Assembly (NCBI GenBank): GCA_028281285.1
Contig: JANQKF010000013.1
Coordinates: forward strand, 62,001-126,000
Source of the DNA: Cyclobacteriaceae bacterium
Lineage (GTDB): Bacteria > Bacteroidota > Bacteroidia > Cytophagales > Cyclobacteriaceae
Reading direction: 5' to 3'
Length of the DNA: 64,000 nucleotides
Part shown: positions 24,189 through 38,500 of the stretch, piece by piece
Layout of the letters: each line of letters starts with the position of its first letter
How positions within the stretch are numbered: the first letter of the stretch is position 1
The notes under the pieces: model-generated
What the model was told of the DNA's origin: nothing
What the model saw: only the letters and a program-made list of their open reading frames with translations
The model's database searches: none
Made by a program: the position numbers and the translations under genes

Positions 24189-25520
24189 CTACTCCTTCCT
24201 GATCCATTTATCGGGCTTCATGGTCTTTATAAAATAAAACCCATCCGTCACCCGATCCCATTGTGCCTTATCCTTTTCATAGCCATAAGGATAGGCGACA
24301 AATTTGTTTTTCAACCAACTCTCTTGACCTGCACCTCTTAATCCCACGAAGAGCGTTTTTTCACCGGATTGGTTCGCTATCCCTTCGAAACTCTCTTGTA
24401 ATGGAGGTTCAATTTTTCTTATGTCTTCATATTGCTTGAACCGGTGATTCTCAGGGTATACCGTTCCAATCTCTCCCGACCCAGCAGTGAACACCATGGA
24501 ATAAAAGGTATCTCCATAAAAATGATTTAGCCAATCCCCCATCTGATAATACGGATAGTATTCATAGGTTTTTGCCTCCATATCTCTTTCGATTGAAACC
24601 ATGTTTCTCGCGAAATGACTTGACGCTCCCCAGAGAATTATTTTCTCGTTCCTGTATATGCTATCAGTCAACCACTTTACCCGTTCTGCCATTTGCTTAT
24701 CGCGTACGATATTCTTGAAGTTGCCGATGTAGCTCACTTCCTCAGCGAACAAAATAGTTTCAAGGGTATACTTATAGACCAAATATGTCTCCCTATTATA
24801 AGAATTAAGAATTGGCTCCGGTCTCTTGACCAATTCTGATTTTAATAATGTAACTAACTGCTTTGCACGCTTTCTACCTTCGAAAGAGAAAGCTTTTGTT
24901 ACAGGATTACCCAGTCGCCCATAGACTGCGTGGATCATACTGTCCAGAATGATCCGATCTCCTTCGGAGATTGTAAAATCCAGTTCCTCACCCATATCAG
25001 ATAAAAGGCCTTTTACATTAGGGATACCGTCCGGCACCTTTTCACCATCGAATCCAGCATATATCAATGGGTTGCTTGTCTCCTTGGTTTCAGCGAAATA
25101 CTCATAAATAGGAAAGGCATATTCGCTGTTGGACCAACCCGAGTACTTAACTACTTCTTCAATTGGCTCCTTTCCAAGTTTCTGGTAGGTCTTCCAATTG
25201 CCATAAAAACCAAACTCAAATGCCAATACATTAAACCCAAATTCCTCATGCAGTAGCTTCACAAGTTGTGTCTTATGCTCGAAGGTGCCACCGTCTTCAT
25301 GAGTGGTCTCGCCAAGCGATAATACTCTAACGCCTTTCAATTCGTTTCTTAGTGCACTTTTGAATTCACTGGTAAACAGTCCGTTAGAATCAATTATAGT
25401 TACCGAATTATCCAGGAGCTCTTTGACTCTATCCTGGCCAAAAACACGGTTAGAAAAACAGAAGAATGAAGTAAGTGTGGCTAGCCCTAGCAGATACGGA
25501 ATTAGATTCTTATTATTCAT
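24189..25520 (-). CDS. Erythromycin esterase-like secreted protein
   Basis: From ATG 25520 the protein has 443 residues with a signal peptide ending RVFGQ; the ATG at 25568 would put 16 hydrophilic residues in front of it. The EreA/EreB-like fold is shown by LSLGETTHEDGGTFEHK, GFNVLAFEFGF, and further conserved segments such as IILWGASSHFARN. EreA-type enzymes open the macrolide lactone ring using a catalytic His and Glu; most environmental homologues have unknown substrates. It is monocistronic, with about 110 bp to the PadR gene. Confidence 0.8.
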   Translation of the reverse strand: MNNKNLIPYLLGLATLTSFFCFSNRVFGQDRVKELLDNSVTIIDSNGLFTSEFKSALRNELKGVRVLSLGETTHEDGGTFEHKTQLVKLLHEEFGFNVLAFEFGFYGNWKTYQKLGKEPIEEVVKYSGWSNSEYAFPIYEYFAETKETSNPLIYAGFDGEKVPDGIPNVKGLLSDMGEELDFTISEGDRIILDSMIHAVYGRLGNPVTKAFSFEGRKRAKQLVTLLKSELVKRPEPILNSYNRETYLVYKYTLETILFAEEVSYIGNFKNIVRDKQMAERVKWLTDSIYRNEKIILWGASSHFARNMVSIERDMEAKTYEYYPYYQMGDWLNHFYGDTFYSMVFTAGSGEIGTVYPENHRFKQYEDIRKIEPPLQESFEGIANQSGEKTLFVGLRGAGQESWLKNKFVAYPYGYEKDKAQWDRVTDGFYFIKTMKPDKWIRKE

Positions 25521-26556: not shown

Positions 26557-27654
26557 CTACAATGTCCCTTTTGTGCTCGGCAGATTATCCATTTCTTCGG
26601 GATTTCTCTTTACAGCCATCTTAATTGCCTTGGCAAACGCTTTGAAGATTGCTTCAATCTTATGATGTTCATTATCTCCTTCCACTCTGACGTTCAAATT
26701 GCATTTGGATGCATCGGAAAAGGATTTAAAAAAGTGCATAAACATCTCCGTTGGCATATCCCCGATTTTCTCACGCTTAAATTCTGCTTCCCATACCAAC
26801 CAGGGCCTTCCACCAAAATCAATCGCAACTTGTGCCAGGGCCTCATCCATAGGCAGCAAAAATCCATAGCGATTGATCCCTCTCTTATCACCTATTGCCT
26901 CTGCAAAGGCTTCCCCCAATGCCAGTGCCGTATCTTCAATGGTATGATGCTCATCAATATGAAGATCGCCAATTACATGAACCATCAAATCACAACCCGA
27001 GTGCTTACCCAGTTGATCAAGCATATGATCGAAGAAGCCCAAACCCGTTTGATTATCACATTGGCCTGACCCGTCCAGGTTCAATTTCACTTGAATATCC
27101 GTTTCCTTGGTAACCCGATGAACGTCTGATACTCTGACTGGTAATTGCAGAAAATCGAAAATTTCGTCCCAACTTGTCGTAGAAAGTGCTGCTTCTGTGT
27201 TCTGCTCTTCTGATATGTATATCCCTTTCGCTCCGAGATTCTTTGCTAATTCAATATCGGTAAGCCTATCCCCCAAGACGTAGGAGTTAGTCAGGTCATA
27301 ATTACCATCAATGTATTTGCCCAATAGTCCTGTCCGCGGCTTTCTCGTATGGGCGTTTTCATGTTCGAAGGTCTTGTCAATAAGGATTTCATCAAAAATA
27401 ACTCCTTCACCTTCAAGTGTTTTTAGCATCTTGTTATGAGCGGGCCAAAAGGTATCTTCAGGGAACGAGTCGGTTCCTAATCCGTCTTGGTTAGTGACCA
27501 TGACCAACTCATAATCAAGCTGTTCGGCAATCTTTCTAAGATTGGTAATAGCACCTGGAATGAATTCCAGTTTTTCCAGTGAGTCCACCTGGTAGTCTTC
27601 AGAGGGCTCAACAATGATGGTCCCATCTCGGTCTATAAATAGTGCTTTTTTCAT
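26557..27654 (-). CDS. hisB: Bifunctional histidinol-phosphatase / imidazoleglycerol-phosphate dehydratase
   Basis: From ATG 27654 the protein has 365 residues; a 14-residue upstream extension from 27696 would run into a palindromic repeat and is unlikely. Residues 1-about 165 are the HAD phosphatase domain (FIDRDGTI with Asp8 and Asp10). Residues about 175-365 are the dehydratase, with [15 protein letters not shown] and [14 protein letters not shown] metal-binding His clusters. It catalyses steps 6 and 8 of histidine synthesis. It is the last his gene here; hisH, hisA, hisF and hisI do not follow. Confidence 0.96.
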
Positions 27655-27755: not shown

Positions 27756-28802
27756 CTATTCTAATTTCCTTAATTCGTCAATAAGCTTTTTATTTTCTTC
27801 TCTGGTTCCAACAGTAATTCTAAGCGCATTCTCACAAAGTACTACTTTCGACCGATCGCGAACAATGACCTTTTTGTGAATCAGATCTGCATATACCTTA
27901 CTTGCCTTATCCAATTCCACCAGGAAAAAGTTCGCATCCGATGGATGAACCTTATGGATGATTGAGAGCCCTTTCAAGTCTCTTTCCAGTTCCGCACGAT
28001 CTTTCAGAATCTGGGCCACCATTTCTATCTTTTTGTGCGAATTGCCAAGTGCCATGAGTACAGTTTCCTGAGTCAGCCCACTTAGATTGTAAGGTGCCTT
28101 AATTCTATTTGGAATTTTCAATAGTTCAGCTGAGCCAAATGCCATTCCCAATCGAAGTCCTGCAAGCCCCCAAGCCTTGCTGAATGTTTGAAGTACTACC
28201 AGGTTCGGAAACTCATCCAGTCTGGAGATATAGCTTTCTCGGTTAGTAAAATCAATGTAGGCCTCATCGATAACCACAATACCTTTGAAATTTCTGATCA
28301 CTTTGTCGATTCTATCTTGACTGAGATCATTGCCTGTAGGGTTGTTCGGACTACAGATAAAGACCATCTTCGTATTCGTATTCACAGCATCAAGAATACC
28401 CGCATCATCAAGTTCGTAATCTTCACTTAAGAGCACTTCAATCGTTTGGACATCATTGATATCAGCTGATACTTTGTACATACCATAGGTCGGAGGATTG
28501 ATGATTACGTTATCGATCCCAGGCTCACAAAATGCCCGAAATAAAAGATCGATGGGTTCGTCACTTCCATTTCCTAGAAAAATCTGATCTGTACCAACCG
28601 CCTTTATTTCTGAAATTTTTTCTTTCAACTTTCGTTGGTAAGGGTCAGGATACCTGTTCCAATCCTGATCGGTAATCGAGCCAATTGGGTTTTCATTCGC
28701 ATCCAAAAAGATTCCGTCATCTCCCTGATAGTCATCTCTTGCCGATGAGTATGGCACCAAATCTCGAAGGTGTGGCCTTATTAACTTGAGCGGATCAAAC
28801 AT
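27756..28802 (-). CDS. hisC: Histidinol-phosphate aminotransferase
   Basis: This 348-residue fold type I PLP enzyme has the N-terminal DANENPIG segment, SPNNPTGN (151-158), IDEAYIDF (178-185) and the PLP lysine Lys209 in FSKAWGLAGLRLG. It transaminates imidazole-acetol phosphate to histidinol phosphate. The start overlaps the hisD stop by 8 bp. The gap to hisB (about 100 bp) holds the palindromic element. Confidence 0.96.
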   Translation of the reverse strand: MFDPLKLIRPHLRDLVPYSSARDDYQGDDGIFLDANENPIGSITDQDWNRYPDPYQRKLKEKISEIKAVGTDQIFLGNGSDEPIDLLFRAFCEPGIDNVIINPPTYGMYKVSADINDVQTIEVLLSEDYELDDAGILDAVNTNTKMVFICSPNNPTGNDLSQDRIDKVIRNFKGIVVIDEAYIDFTNRESYISRLDEFPNLVVLQTFSKAWGLAGLRLGMAFGSAELLKIPNRIKAPYNLSGLTQETVLMALGNSHKKIEMVAQILKDRAELERDLKGLSIIHKVHPSDANFFLVELDKASKVYADLIHKKVIVRDRSKVVLCENALRITVGTREENKKLIDELRKLE

Positions 28803-30081
28803 TTTCTATCGATTTAAGTCGAATGGACACAGCGTTTTTGTGGGCCTCCAACTCCTCAGCAGCTGCCATGGTTTCGATGGTCGGTCCCAGGTTCATCAAG
28901 CCTTGTTTACTGATTTTTTGAAAGGTAATCTTCTTCAAAAAGCTATCCAATGAAACACCACTAAAGGCTCTGGCGAATCCATTTGTTGGCAAGGTATGAT
29001 TCGTTCCGGATGCGTAGTCTCCCGCTGATTCCGGAGTATAATTTCCAAGGAAAACAGACCCGGCATTAACAACGTTCTCGGCCACCTGATCCGCATTTTC
29101 AACAGAAATAATAAGATGCTCTGCGGCATATTGATTGAGAAAATCGATTGCATCTTCTTCCTGCAAAACAATCATCAAGCTATTTGAGAGTGCCTTTTCG
29201 GCAATCTTCTTTCGTGGCAGTCTCTTCAATTGCTCATGTAGCTCTCTTTCTACCTGACCAATTGTTTCTTCAGAATTGGCCACTAAAATCACCTGACTAT
29301 CTTCTCCATGTTCTGCTTGAGATAACAAATCAGCTGCCACAAAGGCAGGAACAGCGGTACCGTCTGCATAGACAGCTACTTCTGATGGACCGGCTGGCAT
29401 ATCAATCGCAATTCCAATTCTTGAAAGAAACTGCTTAGCTACCGTCACATACTGATTACCGGGCCCGAAAATTTTGTAGACCTGGGGAATGGTTTCAGTA
29501 CCAAAAGCCATGGCGGCTATCGCTTGAGCTCCTCCAATCTTAAATAACCTGGTGACGCCTACCTCATTTGCTGCCCAAAGAATGGCAGGATGGACCTTCC
29601 CCATCTTATCAGGAGGTGTGCAAACCACAACTTCCTTACAACCCGCTAGTTTTGCCGGAACTCCAAGCATTAAGACTGTGGAGAATAAAGGGGCAGTACC
29701 TCCCGGCACATAAAGCCCCACCCTTTCTATCGGAACCGACTTACGATAGCAATTCACTCCCGGCATCGTTTCCACCACCTCTATGTCCTCTCGTTGTATA
29801 CTGTGGAATTTCTCAATATTGGCCTTCGCTCTACGAATCGCCTCTTTTAAGTCATCGGAGACCAGTGAAGCCGCCTCCGCCATTTCTTCTTGTGATACAA
29901 TCATCGAAGAATGTCGCACTCCATCAAACTTCTCTGTCAGTTCAAGCAGGGCTTGATCTCCTTCTTCAATTACCCGGTTGATCACCGGTTGAACAACCTT
30001 TTCAATTTGTTCATAATCTGAAATGGGCCTCTTTATCAATTCTCTCCATTGAGATCTATCCGGATTGATCAGCTTTCTCAT
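28795..30081 (-). CDS. hisD: Histidinol dehydrogenase
   Basis: This 428-residue enzyme is full length. It shows the family landmarks GLYVPGGTAPLFSTVLM, GGAQAIAAMAFGTETIP, GPGNQYV, the zinc region LLSQAEHGEDSQ and the C-terminal AEHL motif. It oxidises histidinol twice with NAD+ to give histidine, using zinc. It overlaps hisG by 4 bp and hisC by 8 bp, indicating a translationally coupled operon. Confidence 0.97.
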   Translation of the reverse strand: MRKLINPDRSQWRELIKRPISDYEQIEKVVQPVINRVIEEGDQALLELTEKFDGVRHSSMIVSQEEMAEAASLVSDDLKEAIRRAKANIEKFHSIQREDIEVVETMPGVNCYRKSVPIERVGLYVPGGTAPLFSTVLMLGVPAKLAGCKEVVVCTPPDKMGKVHPAILWAANEVGVTRLFKIGGAQAIAAMAFGTETIPQVYKIFGPGNQYVTVAKQFLSRIGIAIDMPAGPSEVAVYADGTAVPAFVAADLLSQAEHGEDSQVILVANSEETIGQVERELHEQLKRLPRKKIAEKALSNSLMIVLQEEDAIDFLNQYAAEHLIISVENADQVAENVVNAGSVFLGNYTPESAGDYASGTNHTLPTNGFARAFSGVSLDSFLKKITFQKISKQGLMNLGPTIETMAAAEELEAHKNAVSIRLKSIENV

Positions 30082-30938
30082 ACAATCATCTTTTCAATCG
30101 GTACGACAAGAATGCCTTCAGCACCTGCCGATCTTAAATTCTCAATCACGCCCCAGAAATCATCTTCCTGAATCACCGAATGGATGGATGACCATCCGGG
30201 CTGTGCTAAAGGAAGTACGGTCGGGCTACGCATTCCAGGCAGAATATCGATAATCTTATCAATTGACTCATTTGGAGAGTTTAACAGGATATACTTGTTG
30301 TTCTTGGCCGTTTGCACCGAATCAATTCTAAACAACAATCGCTTCAATAATGCCTGCTTTTCTTCGCCTAAGAACTTATTAGCTATCAAAATAGCTTCGG
30401 ACTGGTATATAACCTCTACTTCTTTAAGTCCGTTGCTCATCAACGTGCTACCAGAGCTCACGATATCACATATACCATAGGCAAGTCCAATACTTGGTGC
30501 AATCTCTACCGAACCACTGATTTCATGGATTTCGGCATTAACACTATTTGCCTGTAGAAAGTCGCTCAATATCTTAGGGTATGAGGTGGCAAGTGCTTTA
30601 CCTTCAAAGTCCTGAATCCCATTATAGGGCTCGTTTTTATCTATTGCCAGGGAAAGTCGACACTTGGAAAATCCTAGTTTCTTCACCCAGTCAACCGCTT
30701 TGTCTTTCTCTTCGGCTTCATTTGCTCCAACGATTCCTATGTCAGCTATACCATCCTGAACATATCCGGGTATATCGTCATCCCGTAGGAACAAAAACTC
30801 AAGCGGAAAATTGGAGGACGAAGATTTTAGCTTGCCGGCACCATTGCTAAACTTGATGCCGCACTCCTTGATTAGTTTTAGTGAATCATCGCTGAGCCTT
30901 CCTTTTTTTTGAACAGCGATACGTATTGTATTATCCAT
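30078..30938 (-). CDS. hisG: ATP phosphoribosyltransferase, long form
   Basis: At 286 residues this is the long HisG form, with a C-terminal regulatory domain (about 215-286, ending SAGAEGILVVPIEKMIV) that usually gives histidine feedback inhibition without HisZ. The catalytic part shows the N-terminal IAVQKKGRLSD, the LRDDDIPGYVQDGIADIGIV segment and the phosphate loop ISSGSTL-type region (IVSSGSTLMSNG). It starts histidine synthesis from ATP and PRPP. It is the first structural gene after the histidine-rich leader. Confidence 0.96.
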   Translation of the reverse strand: MDNTIRIAVQKKGRLSDDSLKLIKECGIKFSNGAGKLKSSSSNFPLEFLFLRDDDIPGYVQDGIADIGIVGANEAEEKDKAVDWVKKLGFSKCRLSLAIDKNEPYNGIQDFEGKALATSYPKILSDFLQANSVNAEIHEISGSVEIAPSIGLAYGICDIVSSGSTLMSNGLKEVEVIYQSEAILIANKFLGEEKQALLKRLLFRIDSVQTAKNNKYILLNSPNESIDKIIDILPGMRSPTVLPLAQPGWSSIHSVIQEDDFWGVIENLRSAGAEGILVVPIEKMIV

Positions 30939-30990
30939 CGGATTGATAACTCTATTGGGTTAGAATTGATTTAGAAATTTGAATGAAATA

Positions 30991-31057
30991 CTGGCTCACC
31001 GCCAGGGCAAAGTAATTGTGTGCATCTCTCCTAAGAGAGATGATGGATATGATGCAC
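30991..31057 (-). promoter_or_regulatory. Candidate his attenuator (alternative hairpins)
   Basis: Reading the minus strand from the leader: a stem ATCTCTC/GAGAGAT lies at the leader stop (31041-31024). GTGCATC within the His codons (31057-31051) can pair with GATGCAC (31026-31020). A 5-bp GC-rich stem CTGGC/GCCAG lies at 31005-30991, 53 nt before hisG. GTGCAT can alternatively pair with ATGCAC at 31057-31052, giving mutually exclusive folds. The last stem has only a modest T-rich tail, so it is not a textbook terminator. Confidence 0.5.
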
Positions 31058-31102
31058 GTGATGTGCATTGTTCTGAGAATATGTATTGACTAAGTCAATC
31101 AT
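31031..31102 (-). CDS. hisL: his operon leader peptide
   Basis: ATG at 31102 opens a 23-residue ORF ending TAG at 31033-31031. It contains six histidine codons in eight positions (HHVHHIHH), the classical sensor arrangement of a histidine attenuator. It starts about 165 nt upstream of hisG on the same strand, and a perfect promoter ends only 7 nt before the ATG. It is far below usual gene-calling length limits. Ribosome stalling at these codons when charged tRNA-His is scarce would change which downstream hairpin forms. Confidence 0.8.
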   Translation of the reverse strand: MIDLVNTYSQNNAHHVHHIHHLS

Positions 31103-31109
31103 GTGGGTG

Positions 31110-31139
31110 CAAAGATAGGTGTGCGATTCTTCTAAACAA
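31110..31139 (-). promoter_or_regulatory. Bacteroidota promoter of the his operon
   Basis: On the minus strand TTG (31139-31137), a 19-nt spacer and TATCTTTG (31117-31110) match the phylum consensus TTG-N19-TAnnTTTG exactly. The start site is predicted around 31104-31106, only a few nt before the hisL ATG. Confidence 0.75.
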
Positions 31140-31280
31140 GGACTAATGGTTGGAATTCTGATTTAATTATCCTTTCGGTGATATAACAGACGGATCAACA
31201 TACTCTTTCGGGAAATTATGGGGTATAAGCTTTTGTAATAACATGCGATGCCATTCATCATTATTTTTTTTAGAGTGATA

Positions 31281-31302
31281 ATTCAATTATTAAATTGAAT
31301 TT
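31281..31302. promoter_or_regulatory. Palindromic operator candidate upstream of the interrupted PIN gene
   Basis: The 9-bp arms AATTCAATT and AATTGAATT are separated by 4 nt and end 18 nt before the ATG at 31321. The encoded N-terminal domain looks like a winged helix, so autoregulation is plausible. Confidence 0.45.
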
Positions 31303-31320
31303 TATTAATGCCAATCACAC

Positions 31321-31653
31321 ATGAAATCAGTCAAAGTAGTTGCGTTTAGTCTTTTGGCACATATTAATGATAATACTGTCGGCATCACCAGCTTTGATGA
31401 TATTTTCATACCAATCGTGAAGTCAGCACTAAGAGAGTTGAGTGATAGAGGAGTAAAACATGGGGCTTCTCTTTCAGATATTAAAGACAAAGTTGATGAG
31501 CGCTTCTCTTTGGACATTCCAATCCCATACTTATCATCGTTACTTGAAAAAATCGCAAATGAATACTCAGCAAAAGGAAGTGACGAAATAACGTTACACA
31601 AAGACGGCTCATTTCTTCTTAATCAATTTGTAGCTGAAGATTTTGAAAAGTAA
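31321..31653 (+). CDS. N-terminal fragment: putative winged-helix domain
   Basis: This 110-residue fragment is predicted mostly helical (FIPIVKSALRELSDRG, LSDIKDKVDERF, PYLSSLLEKIANEYS) with a terminal beta hairpin (EITLHKDGSFLLNQF). That is the pattern of a winged-helix DNA-binding domain, although I recognise no named family. It ends at TAA 31651 immediately before further in-frame coding-like sequence, so it is probably the front part of a longer gene. It is transcribed divergently from the his operon. A palindrome lies just upstream. Confidence 0.55.
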   Translation: MKSVKVVAFSLLAHINDNTVGITSFDDIFIPIVKSALRELSDRGVKHGASLSDIKDKVDERFSLDIPIPYLSSLLEKIANEYSAKGSDEITLHKDGSFLLNQFVAEDFEK

Positions 31654-31740
31654 ATTGACGACAGTGAAGCTGACATAAATGAGATCAATAAGGCGTATGA
31701 AATTTATCTCAAAACTGAAGGAGTATTAATTAACGATGAA

Positions 31741-33237
31741 ATGTCCATTTATGAGTATTTGGATAAAAGTCGTTTGCGGCTATCTAAATTTTTTGCCTAT
31801 AGAGAATCGCAGGAATTAAATATAGATGATGTTCACCAAGCTGGGTTTATCAACTCTTTAAGGGATCGGCCTAAACTCTTCAATACACTAAGAAGAATAT
31901 ATTTGGGATCCATCATAGCCGCCTATTTGAGTGTTGATATTGGTAAAACAGAGAGAAGCATGGAATTGCTTTTGGACACTAATTTCATCATTGGTCTGCT
32001 TGATTTAAACTCAAAGGAATCCACACATACCTGCCGACAAATATTGGATTTATCGAAAAAATTGGGATTCAAAATCTCTGTATTGCCTTATACTTTGGAA
32101 GAAACAGAATTGCTGATACAACGAAAAGCGAATCAACTGAATAAAAGTTTTTTTCAGGGCTATCTCGACCCTGAAAGTATTTTTCACGCTGCTATTAGGA
32201 GAAATTTGACTAAAACTGAACTCGTCAGAATTAGTTCAAACCTTAAAAGCATCCTAGAAAAAGAATATGACATTTTGGCAATTGCAAATGATACCAAATA
32301 CCGCAATCTGGCAAAATTCCAGTATAAGAAAATATTTGATTTCTATAAATCACTTAGAGGCACCAACAACTGGAGTGCTCATCATGACACAACTGCAATC
32401 GCATATGTCAAAGAAAAAAGAAACAGAAAGCCCGTTATGGGGAATTTCATGAATGCCAATTGTTGGTTTGTAACTAATACGCCCTACGATGTTAGAACAC
32501 CACCCGATAGCCAAGGAAGTCTTCCAGAAATTATTCGAGCTGGAGAATTATTGAGTCTGCTATGGCTGAGTAGTCCAAGGGTAAAACAGCTTATCAACGA
32601 CACGGAATTCTCAAACTTAGGGCTTACCCGTCTAGTGTCTACTACGATTTCTCATGGACTTCCTAGTCCTCGAGTATTGCGGGAACTGGATAACAACTTT
32701 AGCAGATATAACAAGGAACATGAGATTTCAGCAGATGACACCCTAGTCATTGCAAATTTGATCGCAAAAAAGAGAATTGATCATCCAGATGATTTGAACA
32801 AGCTTGCTAGAAAAGAACCAGATGAATTCATTGAAAAAGTCAAAAACCTAGCTGAAAATGGTCGGAAGGAGGACAGGGAACTTCAGGAGCATATTGACGA
32901 TATATTGAACAAAGTAGAAGAAATGTTTGAGGCTCAAAAATCCCAACCTCAAAAAGAGATCATTATAGAAGACAACGTTCAAACTAGCATAAATAAGTCA
33001 GGTAAATTCGCTTTAGCGTCTATTTTGATTCTATTTTTGTCGTTTGTTTTATGGACGTTTGACTACACTTTCAATGTTGGACTATTAGAAGAATTGAAAA
33101 ATTATTATTTAGTAAAAGTTTCGATTCAACTAATAATAATCTTTGGGGTAATTGCGATTGTTTGGAAAAAAAGAGCCTTTTGGTACGGAGGGTTTATCAG
33201 TTTGTTGATATTAATAATCATGCTTTTGAAAAATTGA
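31741..33237 (+). CDS. PIN-like nuclease domain protein with C-terminal membrane helices
   Basis: This 498-residue ORF contains a PIN-like domain: the first acidic motif ELLLDTNFIIGLLDL (about residues 76-90), an acidic YTLEETELLI strand-helix, HHDTTAIAYVKEKR and CWFVTNTPYD, which can supply the metal-binding Asp/Glu set of PIN ribonucleases. A Glu/Lys-rich helical stretch follows (about 355-415). Three hydrophobic helices close the protein (about 422-498: FALASILILFLSFVLW, VSIQLIIIFGVIAIVW, FISLLILIIMLL). RNA cleavage at the membrane, possibly in stress or phage defence, is inference only. The start is likely artificial, since coding-like sequence continues upstream in frame. Confidence 0.65.
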   Translation: MSIYEYLDKSRLRLSKFFAYRESQELNIDDVHQAGFINSLRDRPKLFNTLRRIYLGSIIAAYLSVDIGKTERSMELLLDTNFIIGLLDLNSKESTHTCRQILDLSKKLGFKISVLPYTLEETELLIQRKANQLNKSFFQGYLDPESIFHAAIRRNLTKTELVRISSNLKSILEKEYDILAIANDTKYRNLAKFQYKKIFDFYKSLRGTNNWSAHHDTTAIAYVKEKRNRKPVMGNFMNANCWFVTNTPYDVRTPPDSQGSLPEIIRAGELLSLLWLSSPRVKQLINDTEFSNLGLTRLVSTTISHGLPSPRVLRELDNNFSRYNKEHEISADDTLVIANLIAKKRIDHPDDLNKLARKEPDEFIEKVKNLAENGRKEDRELQEHIDDILNKVEEMFEAQKSQPQKEIIIEDNVQTSINKSGKFALASILILFLSFVLWTFDYTFNVGLLEELKNYYLVKVSIQLIIIFGVIAIVWKKRAFWYGGFISLLILIIMLLKN

Positions 33238-33267
33238 TCTGACTGAAAGAGTCCGTTTGACACATCA

Positions 33268-33783
33268 TTAAATTTTGTCATCACCAACTTCAATCAAAAA
33301 TCCCTCCAAATTAAACCACTCCTGCTCTTCCACTTCTTCCAAGATTTCGCTTAATCGTTTTGAGTAGGTGGGGTTTAAGCCTGTAGCTTCAACAAAAGTC
33401 ACAGCCTCTCTAAATGAATTGAGTATGCTCTTATAGAAGGCTTCTCGAGTTGTTCTCTTTTCTGCATTGAATTTTAAGGCAATTTCGATATTGAAGAGCA
33501 TCAGGTCGGCTAAGAGTAAGGGATCGAGTTCAAGGTCTTGAAAATGCCTGATTGCCTTCTGTGCCACCGATCTTCTGGCCTTTGGCTTTCTCCCATTGAC
33601 AGGGAAGTACTCCTTGGAAATTTTGAACTTGGCTTCTTCTATTAACTTCTCCTCTTTGGGGTTGAAAACGAAGTTGTAATACGTTTTTACCGCCTTGAAT
33701 TTATCGTAGAGTTCCAGGATTTGGGTTTCCAGTTCTTCCTTGTCCAGTGATTGAAGGTATTTAACCAGTGCGCGTTTGCTCAT
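33268..33783 (-). CDS. DUF6155 family protein
   Basis: From ATG 33783 the protein has 171 residues. It matches DUF6155 with an N-terminal SKRALVKYLQSLDKEELETQ, the YYNFVFNPKEEKLIEEAKFK segment and RRSVAQKAIRHFQDLELDP. It is all-helical and charged; the function is unknown. An upstream ATG at 33807 is possible but the family starts at MSKRAL. The gene is followed by a 106-bp repeat on its upstream side (33819-33924). Confidence 0.8.
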   Translation of the reverse strand: MSKRALVKYLQSLDKEELETQILELYDKFKAVKTYYNFVFNPKEEKLIEEAKFKISKEYFPVNGRKPKARRSVAQKAIRHFQDLELDPLLLADLMLFNIEIALKFNAEKRTTREAFYKSILNSFREAVTFVEATGLNPTYSKRLSEILEEVEEQEWFNLEGFLIEVGDDKI

Positions 33784-33818
33784 GACACAAGATAGGTAGA
33801 ACCCCATAAATTTTATCG

Positions 33819-33924
33819 GTCATTTCAAGTGGACTTGTCCACCGAAACTAAGTGAAGGTGGAGCGAGAAATCGTCTTATTCCTGTCACGAATCTAAGAAG
33901 ACCTCTCCTTTCTGTCGAGGAGAC
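33819..33924. repeat. 106-bp intergenic repeat, family 1, copy A
   Basis: It begins GTCATTTCAAGTGGAC and ends CTGTCGAGGAGAC, and has the same length and colinear sequence as copy C. It contains the perfect hairpin GTGGAC-TT-GTCCAC and a matching GGTGGAG farther in. The ends are imperfect inverted repeats of each other. It lies 27 bp before the GIY-YIG gene. Confidence 0.8.
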
Positions 33925-33951
33925 ATTCTAAATGGCTCGTATTTTTAATCG

Positions 33952-34248
33952 ATGCCCGGCAACTATTTTGTATATATCACCACAAATCCTGACAGGACCA
34001 CACTGTATATTGGAGTAGCCAATGATCTCAGAACCAGGCTTAGACAACACAAAGAGAATCGTGGTAACCGAAAAACTTTTGCGGGTAGATATCATTGTTA
34101 TAATCTGATCTATTTCGAAAGATTTGACAGTGCCGCTAACGCTATTAACAGAGAAAAAGAACTAAAGAAATGGAGTCGTATAAAGAAGGAAGGCCTTATC
34201 TCTTTGAGAAATGCTCATTGGGAATTTTATGATTCGGAAGCATTGTAA
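33952..34248 (+). CDS. GIY-YIG nuclease family protein
   Basis: This 98-residue single-domain protein has the motifs YFVYITTN and TLYIGVANDLRTRLRQHKE (the GIY-YIG pair and catalytic Arg), then Tyr in YHCYNLIYFE, and the metal-binding Glu in NREKELKKW. It is of the UvrC/YhbQ-like stand-alone type; such proteins cut DNA but their biological roles are mostly unknown. It is bracketed by copy A of the 106-bp repeat on the left and by a degraded copy and copy B on the right, as if the gene and repeats form a unit. Confidence 0.88.
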   Translation: MPGNYFVYITTNPDRTTLYIGVANDLRTRLRQHKENRGNRKTFAGRYHCYNLIYFERFDSAANAINREKELKKWSRIKKEGLISLRNAHWEFYDSEAL

Positions 34249-34251
34249 ATT

Positions 34252-34329
34252 TTGTCCAAGGAAATTCAGTTAACAGTTAAAAACCTCACAAACTTAATTA
34301 AGAAGATCTCTCCGTATAGTCGAGATGAC
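34252..34329. repeat. Degenerate copy of the family 1 repeat
   Basis: The right end (34299-34329, TAAGAAGATCTC and AGTCGAGATGAC) is nearly identical to the end of copy C. The left part starting TTTGTCCAAGGAAA is only weakly similar and about 12 nt are missing. It starts 4 nt after the GIY-YIG stop codon. Confidence 0.5.
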
Positions 34330-34342
34330 TCTCAATTAGTAG

Positions 34343-34449
34343 GTCATTTCGAGTGGACTTGTCCACCGAAACAAAGTGAAGGTGGAGCGAGAAATCTTCT
34401 TATTCATGTCATTGAACAGAGAACATCTCTTTATTCTGTTGAGTTGAAC
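34343..34449. repeat. Family 1 repeat, copy B
   Basis: The first 62 nt match copy C exactly (GTCATTTCGAGTGGACTTG onwards, through the GCGAGAAATCTTCTTATTC block). The right half is diverged. It is separated from the degenerate copy by only 13 nt, so the two stand head to tail. Confidence 0.75.
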
Positions 34450-34528
34450 ATTAAAGACTCAAATACAACGAAACAGGGATAAGCAACCTCGAATCATAAT
34501 CTGGAGTCTTTTCTTAAATACCTTAATC

Positions 34529-35422
34529 ATGACCAGAATTCTCTTTCTTACCATTCTCTTGTGCTTATCGTCTACCATTACTGCCCAGGATTATATCATC
34601 GAAGATGCAGAGCGGTTTGCCGAAATCTTCCAACAAAATCCTGACAGTATAACTCCCGAGACACTGCAAATCGGATATCTGGACCCCGGCACTCAAGGCA
34701 TCAAAATCTTCACCTGGCGCAGGATTAAGAATGCCAAGAATATGGCCAATATGGTGAGTAAGTATAGAAAGTCCTACCAGAAAGGAGTTGAGCTCATGCT
34801 TCCTGCGGCCAGAACTGCAGCTGATGAATCGGCCGAAGTTTTGGGCAAAATTCAAAAGCTGTTTGATCAAAAGAAGTCAGCGCCTGTGTATATCGTCTTT
34901 GGTGGAAATAACTCAGGTGGAACAGCCTCGTCAAAGGGGTTGGTAATCGGGCTTGAAGTATTAGGAAGATTCGTTGATAATGAGACTGACGCTATTGAAT
35001 TGATCAAAAGCTTTGTAGCACATGAAGTAGTTCATGTTTATCAAGCGAGGGTGAAAGCCAACCCAGGCAAGAGCAGCTTACTCGGCCAAAGTCTTAGGGA
35101 AGGGTTTGCCGATTTCATAGAAAACATGGTCATGGGAAAGGTTTCCAAAGCTGAAGCCGAACGACAGAAGTATGGACTGGCGAATGAAGCTCAGCTTTGG
35201 GAAGAGTATCAGGCAGTAATGCTCAAAAGCGAATATCAGCCATGGATGTATGGCAAAGGCAAAGACGGACGGCCGTCAGACCTTGGTTATTGGGTTGGGA
35301 AAAAGATTTGCGAATCCTATTACAATAAGGCCGATGACAAAAATGAAGCCTTGATGACTCTCCTGAAATTAAAGAACCCAAAAAAGATCCTTGAAGAGAG
35401 TGGCTATAACCCTGGGGGTTGA
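34529..35422 (+). CDS. Secreted zinc protease-like protein (gluzincin type, DUF2268-like)
   Basis: This 297-residue protein has a signal peptide (residues 1-19, ending ITAQ). It contains HEVVH (His165, Glu166, His169) with a downstream Glu191 in LREGFADF, the gluzincin arrangement of two His, a catalytic Glu and a distant Glu. It resembles the DUF2268 group of predicted Zn-dependent proteases. The protein is probably periplasmic; no substrate can be inferred. Family 1 repeats flank the gene on both sides (copy B and copy C). Confidence 0.75.
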   Translation: MTRILFLTILLCLSSTITAQDYIIEDAERFAEIFQQNPDSITPETLQIGYLDPGTQGIKIFTWRRIKNAKNMANMVSKYRKSYQKGVELMLPAARTAADESAEVLGKIQKLFDQKKSAPVYIVFGGNNSGGTASSKGLVIGLEVLGRFVDNETDAIELIKSFVAHEVVHVYQARVKANPGKSSLLGQSLREGFADFIENMVMGKVSKAEAERQKYGLANEAQLWEEYQAVMLKSEYQPWMYGKGKDGRPSDLGYWVGKKICESYYNKADDKNEALMTLLKLKNPKKILEESGYNPGG

Positions 35423-35431
35423 ACACAAATT

Positions 35432-35537
35432 GTCATTTCGAGTGGACTTGTCCACCGAAACAAAGTGAAGGTGGAGCGAGAAATCTTCTTATTCTCGTTA
35501 CTGGTCTAAGAAGATCTCACCCTACAGTCGAGATGAC
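35432..35537. repeat. 106-bp intergenic repeat, family 1, copy C
   Basis: This is the best-preserved copy, starting GTCATTTCGAGTGGACTTG and ending CAGTCGAGATGAC. Its termini are near-perfect inverted repeats (GTCATTTCGA / TCGAGATGAC). It lies between the tail-to-tail protease and BNR-protein genes, starting 9 nt after the protease stop. Confidence 0.8.
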
Positions 35538-35546
35538 TAAAACGTT

Positions 35547-38500
35547 TTAGAACTTCTTGACGATCTCCAGATTCAATCCATCAACATATGCCTTGTATTC
35601 CGACCAATCATTTGCAAAGAATGAATTGATCTCTTCAATGATCGGATCTGCAGCCTTCTCGGCTTTTTGATAAGCATATTGCATGCTTTGATCTACCGGT
35701 TTAAAGGCATCACCCATCTTTCCCCTGAGATTTCCAAGAATGCTAGATAGCACATCGGGATTATTCCTGAACCCTTGTACAGGTGGCTCGAAAATCTTTT
35801 CTCTTAGAGTCTTGATCTTTGCCTTTATCTCGTCCGATTTTTCTTTAAGCTCTTCATTATTCTCAACCAGGCTCATCACGTTACCAACAGCTTCATTGGC
35901 TTCGGTTAATTTGTCTACAGCTTCAGTCACACTACCTACTAAGTCATAGTACTTGCCAATGAAGCGCTCTTTATCTTCCATAGCCACCTGATCCCATTCC
36001 TTACGCATGTCACGCAAAACGTTAATCGTTTGACTACTTGATTCACCTTTATAGGAGATCTTAACAGTATAGGTTCCTGGCATCACATCATATCCTCCTG
36101 GTTTTTGCGAATTCGGATCACTCGGCTTTCTTGACCCCGGGTTTCGAATCCCGTCCTTCTCAAACCCCCAATAGACTCTATTTACACCGGCTTTTATCCC
36201 ATTGAGGGATCTGGTTCTAATCACATTACCTTTCGAATCAGAGATTTCCATCTTTGCCTTTCCTCCACCTTCTTTTGCGTAGAAGCTGATGGCTGCATTG
36301 AAGGGCTTATTCTGCCCCATGAACAACCCATGGCCGGTACTTCTATATCCTCTATAAGGTCCAATGACCGCATTAGTCGCATCCGGAATGGCAAATACAT
36401 GAATCACCTTATCATTCAAGTTTCTCATTTGAGTGGCTTCTCTCAACGGGCGGATGTCGTCCAGAATCCAGATGGCTCTACCAAAGGTACCGATGATGAG
36501 ATCATGCTCCCGAGGGTGAATCTGAAGATCCATGGTTGGTACTGTTGGATAACCATGTGTCCACTTTGCCCACGAGTCGGACCCATCCATTGAAACATAA
36601 AGTCCTGATTCAGTACCTAAAAACATTAGATTCGGCTCTACAGGATCTTGTACGAAGGACAAAGCAAAACCAAACACGTCATCGTCTTCCACAATTCGTT
36701 TCCACGTTCTTCCATAATTGGTGGTCTGGTAAACATAAGGAGACCAATCATCTCGTCTATGCTCATCGAAAACTACAAAGGCGGTTCCCGAGTCATAAGT
36801 ACTTGCTTTGATTTGCTGTACCCAGGAGTTGTCAGGTAATCCCGGAAACTTACCGGCCGAATTGGTCCAATTGGCCCCTCCATCTCGTGTGAGTTGGACA
36901 TTACCATCATCAGTACCCACCCAAATCATACCTTGAGAAAGGGTGCTCGGTTCAACCACTGTGATTGTGGTATGATTTTCAGCTCCGGAATTATCATAGT
37001 TCAGCCCTCCTGTTTCAAATTGCTTTTGTTTTTCCGGATCATTCGTAGTCAAATCAGGGGAAATGATTTCCCAATTCATTCCATGGTCACCGGACTTGAA
37101 CAGGTACTGTGCCCCAAGGTAAATGGTCTTTTTATCAAAAGGATCAATATTAACACCTGCATTCCAGTTGAATCTCAGGTTCTCTCCATCAGGATGTTCA
37201 GGTTGGATACCTTTCATCTCTCCAGTTACCCGATCATATCTTCTAATATTTGCTCGTTGACTCAGCGAATACCCGTATCGGTGATCTAACGGATCAGGAA
37301 CTACATCAAAACCATCACCTCCTACAATTCGCTCCCAGTAGCTATTTCTAATTCCGCCCTGTTTCAACAATTGACTCGGCCCCATCCAGGCACCGTTATC
37401 CTGCATGCCCCCCATAACATTGTAAGGTGTTTCCATGTCATAATTCACATGGTAGAACTGCCCGATAGGAAGGTTCTCCATATAGTGCCAAGCTCCTCCT
37501 CGATCGCGGGTTACTTCCATTCCACCATCATTACCAAGTACAATAAAATTCGGGTCATCCGGGTGGATATAAAGGGCGTGGTTATCTACATGAATGAATC
37601 CAGGATTCACCCACATTTGAAAGCTCTTTCCCCCATCCTCGCTTGAGGTTGCCATCGTATGCAAAGAATAGATACGATTTTCATTTTTGGGATCGACATA
37701 AATATCCGCATAATAAAAAGGGCGATTTCCAAGGAAATTATCTCCTTTCCTTGAAATGCGATACCATCGATTGCCCCCATCATCAGAGCGATAAAGGGCA
37801 TTTTCCTTAGACTCTACATAGGCATAGACTCGGTCAGGCATCGAAGGTGCTATCGCTAAGCCAATTCTACCCAAATTTCCTTTTGGTAAACCATGCTCAG
37901 AGGTTTTTCTATCCCAGGTTTCGCCTCCATCATGTGAAACATATATCCCAGACTCAGGCCCTCCTGAGTTAAAAAACCACGGCCATCTTCTGTGCTCCCA
38001 CATAGCAGCAATCAACTTGTTGGGATTAGTGGGGTCAATTACCAAATCAGCGATCCCTGCTCCAGGTATTGAGTACAATACCTGTCTCCAGGTTTGACCT
38101 CCATCCGTGGATTTATATACGCCTCTCTCCGGGTGTTCACCCCATGGAGAACCAATGGCCCCTACCCAGATTGTGTTAGGGTCACCTGGATGGACAATCA
38201 AACGATGAATGTTTCTGGTCTTTTCCAAGCCCATGTGTGTCCAGGTTTCACCACCATCAAGGCTTTTGTAGACACCATATCCTGAGTTCAAGGAATTTCT
38301 CGGGTTCCCCTCTCCGGTTCCAATCCAGATGGTACTCGCATTGGAAGGGTCGATAGTCACGACCCCAATGGAGGCCACCTCTTCCTCATCAAAGAGTGAT
38401 TTCCAGCTTGTTCCTCCACTAACAGATTTCCATAATCCTCCGGAAGCCGTTCCGGCATAAATTACATTTCGATTATGGCGCACTACATCTATAGAAGTGA

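Follow-up and report, generated by a model that had tools for sequence, protein, structure and literature searches.

Attenuation of histidine operons is textbook gene control by a terminator and an antiterminator. In Enterobacteria it is represented by hisL, a short open reading frame (ORF) with a run of His codons, which reads charged tRNA-His. Upstream ORFs can also act through Rho, as in the Rho-dependent systems tnaC and mgtL, and in topAI-yjhQ of E. coli the position of the ribosome on the upstream ORF reportedly sets the access of Rho. Transcription attenuation of trpE(G) by a leaderless trpL, i.e., by a leader ORF that starts at the 5' end of the transcript, is described for S. meliloti (PMC7298713). 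For F. psychrophilum, another study reports leader-peptide attenuation upstream of amino-acid operons as well as a structured 5' element before hisG, which is conserved in Flavobacteriaceae and is without Rfam matches (PMC9723704).

The his leader considered here lies in a stretch of 64,000 nucleotides from a marine bacterium of the Cyclobacteriaceae (the window; contig JANQKF010000013.1), where it is placed between a promoter and hisGDCB (Table 1). The HisG protein of the window is closest to those of named Roseivirga (85% to locus L058 and 86% to L059). The leader ORF encodes 23 residues (MIDLVNTYSQNNAHHVHHIHHLS), followed by a stop codon, and residues 14-21 read HHVHHIHH. An ORF of 23 residues with six His in eight before hisG had been proposed from the letters of this DNA, in what is called here the original prediction; translation and shuffling confirm it, as no ATG-started ORF of 7-60 codons contained more than four His in eight residues when the 380 nt 5' of hisG were dinucleotide-shuffled 2000 times. 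The leader RNA is also more stably folded than its shuffled versions (z -3.6). The ORF very probably senses histidine shortage, and it is highly likely that the element is an attenuator that works by ribosome stalling at His codons. Elsewhere in the window, two stretches of the plus strand (31321..31653 and 31741..33237) share one frame, have a single TAA between them and look like one stop-divided gene; the ORF at 31741..33237 has no NCBIfam match. The 443-aa protein encoded at 24189..25520 (minus strand) shows weak erythromycin esterase matches (33 bits vs. cut-offs of 750 and 800) and is perhaps a distant relative.

Table 1. Coordinates of the his leader, its predicted RNA elements and the his genes in the window.
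Feature	Position	Strand	Evidence or detail
Promoter, sigma-A-type of Bacteroidota	31110..31139	-	TTG 31139-31137, 19 bp spacer, TATCTTTG 31117-31110; predicted +1 ~31105
His-rich leader ORF	31031..31102	-	23 codons; His cluster in codons 14-21 (31063..31040); translation, shuffle test, conservation
H1, hairpin ATGCAC-ATCAC-GTGCAT within the ORF, overlaps the first His codons	31052..31068	-	predicted in the window; weak evidence
H2, stop-codon hairpin CATCTCTC-TTAG-GAGAGATG, leader stop TAG in the loop	31023..31042	-	conserved stem
H3, hairpin CTGGC-GGTGA-GCCAG, weak U tract	30991..31005	-	fold and terminator scan
Candidate site of Rho loading, a C-rich and G-poor tract located between H3 and hisG	30939..30990	-	C/G composition
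hisG, first gene of hisGDCB	30078..30938	-	NCBIfam TIGR00070, above cut-off
hisD	28795..30081	-	NCBIfam TIGR00069, above cut-off
hisC	27756..28802	-	NCBIfam TIGR01141, above cut-off
hisB, bifunctional	26557..27654	-	NCBIfam NF003937, above cut-off

Regions upstream of hisG were compared in four samples: all 57 regions from genomes of the same GTDB family (hisG in 57 of 60 genomes), 60 from the order (hisG in 61 of 79), 63 from the phylum (hisG in 103 of 118) and 80 loci kept of the 159 found in named genomes; L251 was left out, since its HisG start is unusable. Among the resulting 238 distinct Bacteroidota regions, which are related, over-represent Algoriphagus and hence do not yield independent counts, 74.8% contain an ATG ORF with at least three His in eight residues (3.1% in shuffles) and 65% one with at least four (0.17% in shuffles). 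The His leaders split by the score of their hairpin and U tract. Type A comprises 46 loci from several families that carry a strong U-tract terminator, whereas type B, to which the window belongs, is found in Roseivirga, Algoriphagus, Belliella, Echinicola and a few other Cytophagales, and is marked by a hairpin around the stop codon of the leader. The family sample (n = 57) holds 18 loci with the stop hairpin, 17 of type A, 19 with another His leader and three with none; the named loci (n = 80) divide into 68 with the stop hairpin and 12 other His leaders. A His leader is lacking at 41 of the 56 order loci taken separately, which otherwise comprise eight stop hairpins, four other leaders and three terminators, and the phylum loci (n = 59) include 26 of type A, 16 without a leader, 15 others and two stop hairpins.

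This stop-codon hairpin, H2, which is absent from the original prediction, is the strongest conserved hairpin of the leader. By a rule of at least five Watson-Crick pairs and a loop of 3-6 nt that holds at least two bases of the stop codon, it is present in 79 of the 127 His leaders that have no strong terminator and in none of the 46 that have one; after shuffling of the 3' side, only 1.8-3.1% retain such a hairpin. A separate rule, by which the type B set was drawn, yields 94 loci, of which 86 lie within 130 nt of hisG and 75 are distinct. Since this type B set of 75 was chosen for H2, the hairpin is present in it by definition, and the independent test is the comparison of 79/127 with 0/46; the loci are also related, so that counts within type B are not independent. 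The leader, its distance to the promoter and H2 are conserved across genera. Both the stem letters (CTCTC/GAGAG, CCTCC/GGAGG, TTGCT/AGCAA and TGTGC/GCACA, depending on locus and clade) and the last residues encoded by the leader (LS, SS, SV or CA) vary, so that selection seems to act on the helix rather than on the peptide. A small second ORF that starts from the 3' arm of H2 was seen by eye in the window and L059, and was dropped because it is not conserved.

The 48 His leaders that have neither a strong terminator nor H2 include some with other shapes (Cyclobacterium, Lunatimonas) and four with terminators slightly under the threshold (L222, L224, L227 and L228). The Cyclobacterium loci L081, L093 and L134 and the Lunatimonas locus L129, each with a His leader and with neither a strong terminator nor a five-pair stop hairpin, have downstream structures that look different again. 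A further element of type B leaders is the direct repeat CATATCGCC, which flanks the His codons and H2 (e.g., L103). With at most one mismatch, it occurs in the ORF of 16 of 75 loci (51-72 nt before the end of the stop codon) and downstream in 29 (mostly at +15/+16), with both copies in seven, where shuffles lead one to expect 0.5 and 0.8 for the ORF and downstream copies.

The remaining hairpins bear on the question of a terminator. The U tract behind H3 of the window, TATTTCATTC, is weak, with five T in eight nt, so that the final CTGGC/GCCAG stem without a strong U tract was correctly described. In the Roseivirga relatives, RNAalifold and the alignment place a hairpin at the same position with changed letters. 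No terminator in the window reaches the threshold of the type A/B scoring, and among the 75 type B loci only L059 has at least six T in the eight nt after H3. In L059, the Roseivirga leader that by eye is the most similar one, H3 followed by TTTTTCTT has the full shape of a terminator. In 39 of 46 type A loci, the leader contains an antiterminator partner for the 5' arm of the terminator that pairs better than shuffles do (p < 0.05; mean z -3.05). In type B, by contrast, such a partner for the 5' arm of H3 is found in 3 of 75 loci at p < 0.05, which is chance (mean z 0.04), and downstream pairing of the 3' arm of H2 in none of 75. A test for covarying columns across the entire type B alignment likewise gave no alternative helix, as the top pairs mix pairable and unpairable columns and form no helix. 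The output of type B is not the classical terminator/antiterminator switch. Both parts of that switch were looked for and neither was found at the strength or frequency seen in type A, and the leader is therefore set outside the classical class.

These results also bear on the mutually exclusive pairings of GTGCATC, ATGCAC and GATGCAC, which had been put forward as the switch. The window can form the GTGCATC/GATGCAC alternative, but among 15 aligned sequences of the Roseivirga clade the GATGCAC side exists only in the window and L059, so that the named pairings are not conserved. The lack of antiterminator partners above chance for H3 means that they are not supported as a switch either. H1 is not drawn in the Roseivirga consensus fold by RNAalifold. 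Conservation in close relatives, which the original prediction had set as its test, is thus found for the His codons, H2 and H3 and not for these competing pairings. Its expectation of a non-standard output is supported, while the contrast that it drew with Proteobacteria tells only part of the story. Other Bacteroidota often have a classical His attenuator, as the 46 type A loci demonstrate, and for Flavobacteriaceae leader-peptide attenuation and the structured 5' element of hisG had been reported before (PMC9723704).

The promoter upstream of the leader, as had been claimed, is in place and belongs to the Bacteroidota sigma-A type, with a spacing that is kept across type B; in the window, 7 nt separate the TATCTTTG box from the leader ATG. 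The F. psychrophilum study places the same sigma box at -12 to -5 relative to the transcript start (PMC9723704), and the window transcript is therefore predicted to begin at about 31105, with a 5' UTR of about 3 nt. In 74 of the 75 type B loci (the exception is L122), the box lies 4-10 nt 5' of the in-frame leader ATG, so that the predicted 5' UTR is 0-6 nt, and 71 of these 74 have a TTG 18-21 nt upstream of the box, mostly at 19. Type A is looser: the box is detected in 24 of 46 loci at 7-35 nt from the ATG, and at 10 nt or less in six of these. The position of the box hence supports the nearly leaderless start that had been suspected for this leader. Leaderless mRNAs account for 5.5% in F. 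psychrophilum (PMC9723704) and 5' UTRs shorter than 10 nt for about 3.7% in B. thetaiotaomicron (PMC7366714), and the phylum is said to be without Shine-Dalgarno signals, as stated for F. psychrophilum (PMC9723704).

A second box, TAnnTTGY, is located exactly 4 nt 5' of the hisG ATG in 42 of 75 type B loci, but in none of the 45 type A loci and none of the 55 loci without a leader. It is seen at loci of Algoriphagus and of Belliella-like genomes, such as L106 and L011, and not in the window, and it resembles motif SM5 of F. psychrophilum (PMC9723704). Judged from its spacing, the box would put the start on the A of the hisG ATG and might thus act as an initiation signal or as an additional promoter of hisG that gives a leaderless transcript. 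Genome G109 contains TAnnTTGY at the 4-nt spacing 56 times, vs. 37 for the reversed pattern; at a 6-nt spacing, the counts are 33 and 29.

Compared with hisL (RF00514, His_leader), type B shares the short ORF with a His run upstream of hisG, which is taken to sense charged tRNA-His, but it is without a strong U-tract terminator and an antiterminator, is near-leaderless and holds its stop codon in a hairpin loop. The Rfam model His_leader has no match in window positions 28000-36000 or in L001, and among 18 loci only L184 (type A) matches, with 33.9 bits below the gathering threshold of 49; T-box models match neither in window positions 28000-36000 nor in the 18 loci. Type A leaders (e.g., L040 and L184) share the phylum, the gene and the His-rich leader with type B, and differ by the strong terminator with its antiterminator partner (39/46), the missing stop-codon hairpin (0/46) and the looser distance between promoter and ATG; the structured hisG 5' element of Flavobacteriaceae (PMC9723704) may be compared with them. 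The leaderless trpL of S. meliloti is similar in that its ORF starts at the 5' end of the transcript, but it is reported to act by transcription attenuation (PMC7298713), whereas type B is without a strong terminator or antiterminator. Among the open papers listed, none describes a his leader with a stop-codon hairpin in its title or at the start of its abstract. Taken from its sequence features, type B would appear to be a new form of leader-peptide attenuation and not a member of the classical class.

The absence of a terminator seems to be confined to his. Four genomes whose his leaders are all of the stop-hairpin type (G000, G057, G109 and G094, with L001, L002, L138 and L139) were inspected for other amino-acid leaders. 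By eye, a leader rich in Ile/Leu/Val with a U-tract hairpin behind it precedes ilvD in G109 and G094 (2 of 4; L257 and L258), and a Trp-rich leader followed by a U-tract hairpin precedes trpE in G057 and G094 (2 of 4; L263 and L264). With gene starts set by a simple rule, no such leader was seen at the ilvD and trpE matches of the window genome or at pheA in any of the four genomes. The type B genomes G057, G094 and G109 thus appear to retain classical-looking trpE or ilvD attenuators, which argues for a his-specific absence of the terminator and against a general loss of intrinsic termination. In a HisG tree of 106 rows, the bootstrap of which is not settled and several long branches of which are unsure, type A falls mostly among the rows taken from the wider class and phylum, and L168, from the family of the window, is type A as well. 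Within the order, a clade of 79 rows, whose support is open, contains 32 type B loci, 30 without a leader, 17 other His leaders and no type A. The type B label needs 11 changes on this tree, at least six of them forced by starred branches, and a single origin of type B is therefore not shown. Since 17 type A loci of the family (L039-L057 except L047 and L051), with partial hisG, lie outside the tree, the direction of change between the types is a guess.

For the window, the best explanation is a His-sensing leader-peptide attenuator of a subtype without a clear terminator, the output of which is most likely Rho-dependent (probability about 0.4). The computation shows the leader and its conservation, where the promoter lies, H2, and that a strong terminator and an antiterminator are lacking; we infer the stalling, the Rho step and the sign of the response as follows. 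Transcription would start a few bases from the leader AUG, and the ribosome would load on the 5' end, which is almost leaderless. If charged tRNA-His runs short, the ribosome would stall at the His codons and thereby mask part of the Rho site; if it is ample, the ribosome would reach the stop codon and leave. Rho could then load on the C-rich, G-poor RNA of the ribosome-free leader, i.e., the His-codon stretch, the segment after H2 and the tract after H3, and end transcription upstream of hisG. H2 may fix the position at which the ribosome stops and hold the rest of the leader apart. Such a system would resemble topAI-yjhQ, tnaC and mgtL, in which the position of the ribosome on the upstream ORF governs Rho access; it would differ from them in its signal, codon-specific starvation, and in its target, an amino-acid operon, and the use of Rho by type B is a proposal.

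The composition of the leaders hints at Rho loading in part of the clades. In the last 60 nt 5' of hisG, the C/G ratio is 2.23 in 86 type B loci and 1.16 in 46 type A loci, and C exceeds 1.5 G in 86% of the former and 30% of the latter; for 100-nt regions, the share is 35% among 60 no-leader loci and 18% among 28 intergenic regions of the window. The window genome encodes Rho (PF07497, 125.8 bits, above the cut-off). By clade, C exceeds 1.5 G in 19 of 20 Belliella-like, 27 of 29 Algoriphagus, 9 of 15 Roseivirga and 1 of 5 Echinicola loci, so that for the clade of the window the evidence for Rho is only suggestive. The C-rich bias also overlaps the TAnnTTGY box at hisG (42/75), and a DNA signal may therefore cause part of it. 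Moreover, Rho leaves the conservation of H2 and H3 unexplained, and the presence of the stop-codon hairpin in only 18 of 57 family loci counts against this explanation.

The original prediction had also suggested that the mechanism may be translational. As CAU complements AUG, His codons are natural anti-start sequences: in the absence of a stalled ribosome, those of the leader (AUCCAUC) could pair with the hisG start (GAUGGAU) and block initiation, and a ribosome on the His codons would free the start. The predicted fold of the window itself agrees with this, since the leader has AUC instead of UUC, which matches the GAU of hisG in a helix of 8 bp; pairing between start codon and leader is predicted at 0.99 and falls to 0 with a ribosome masked at the stop codon. 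RNAalifold draws the helix in the Roseivirga, Echinicola and Algoriphagus groups (three of four clades). However, a ribosome masked at the first His codon leaves the window helix intact (0.96), and the mean pairing is 0.131 for leaders with their own hisG (76 sequences) vs. 0.139 after 292 swaps between species. Nor does the leader codon track the second codon of hisG: the Roseivirga relatives L065, L066, L067 and L070 have UUC in the leader despite a hisG start of ATGGAT, and seven Belliella-type loci are without UUCCAU despite ATGGAA. The swap control thus rules out start-codon sequestration as a conserved mechanism, and translational attenuation is an improbable explanation even for the window, where the fold predicts it. 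Weak intrinsic termination, in which H3 (or H2) and its poor U tract would form a degenerate version of the classical attenuator, is unlikely as well. The scan flags H3 of the window as terminator-like (one found vs. 0.2 expected), the same hairpin is directly followed by TTTTTCTT in L059, and a T run follows H2 in L013, L097, L112, L126 and L128. Against this, at least six T in eight nt follow H3 in that single locus of 75 and H2 in 1 of 69 loci of the four main clades, and type A terminators average 6.2 T; an antiterminator partner above chance is missing, and H2 as a terminator would have the wrong sign, since it would be opened by any ribosome that arrives at the stop codon.

Protection of an mRNA by a stalled ribosome has a precedent in ermC. 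In the same manner, a ribosome that stalls near the 5' end of the near-leaderless his mRNA could shield it from 5'-end-dependent decay, with H2 and H3 positioning the ribosome or a nuclease. The tight distance between box and ATG in type B (4-10 nt, vs. 7-35 nt in type A) and the failure to detect a switchable structure in type B would agree with such an effect on mRNA stability, but neither H3 nor the C-rich tract is needed for it, and we regard it as rather improbable. That the ORF is a His-rich micro-ORF without regulatory function, which arose by chance, is very improbable: although many Cytophagales hisG loci do without such an ORF (41 of 56 in the order sample), His leaders recur upstream of hisG across the phylum, the promoter spacing is fixed and the output modules are mutually exclusive (79/127 vs. 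0/46). On the basis of the translational, Rho and intrinsic tests, the Rho-dependent output is ranked first, and mRNA stability and weak intrinsic termination are kept beside it.

A more far-reaching reading, which we put forward tentatively and consider doubtful, is that type B forms a distinct class of amino-acid leaders. Its sensor would be the usual run of codons. As its switch, an mRNA that is almost leaderless and free of competing RNA structures would have a hairpin that encloses the stop codon of the leader itself, so that expression of the operon depends on where one ribosome stands with respect to this hairpin and not on a choice between terminator and antiterminator. In some Cytophagales, this class might have replaced the classical attenuator of his, whereas the classical Trp and Ile/Val attenuators were retained. 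In the Bacteroidota his leaders, the sensor is kept and the output module is exchanged, with either a strong terminator (46 loci) or a stop-codon hairpin (79/127) and never both. The split between type A and type B thereby amounts to a natural experiment on the evolution of attenuators, and type B offers a compact test system for Rho, near-leaderless translation and the position of the ribosome.
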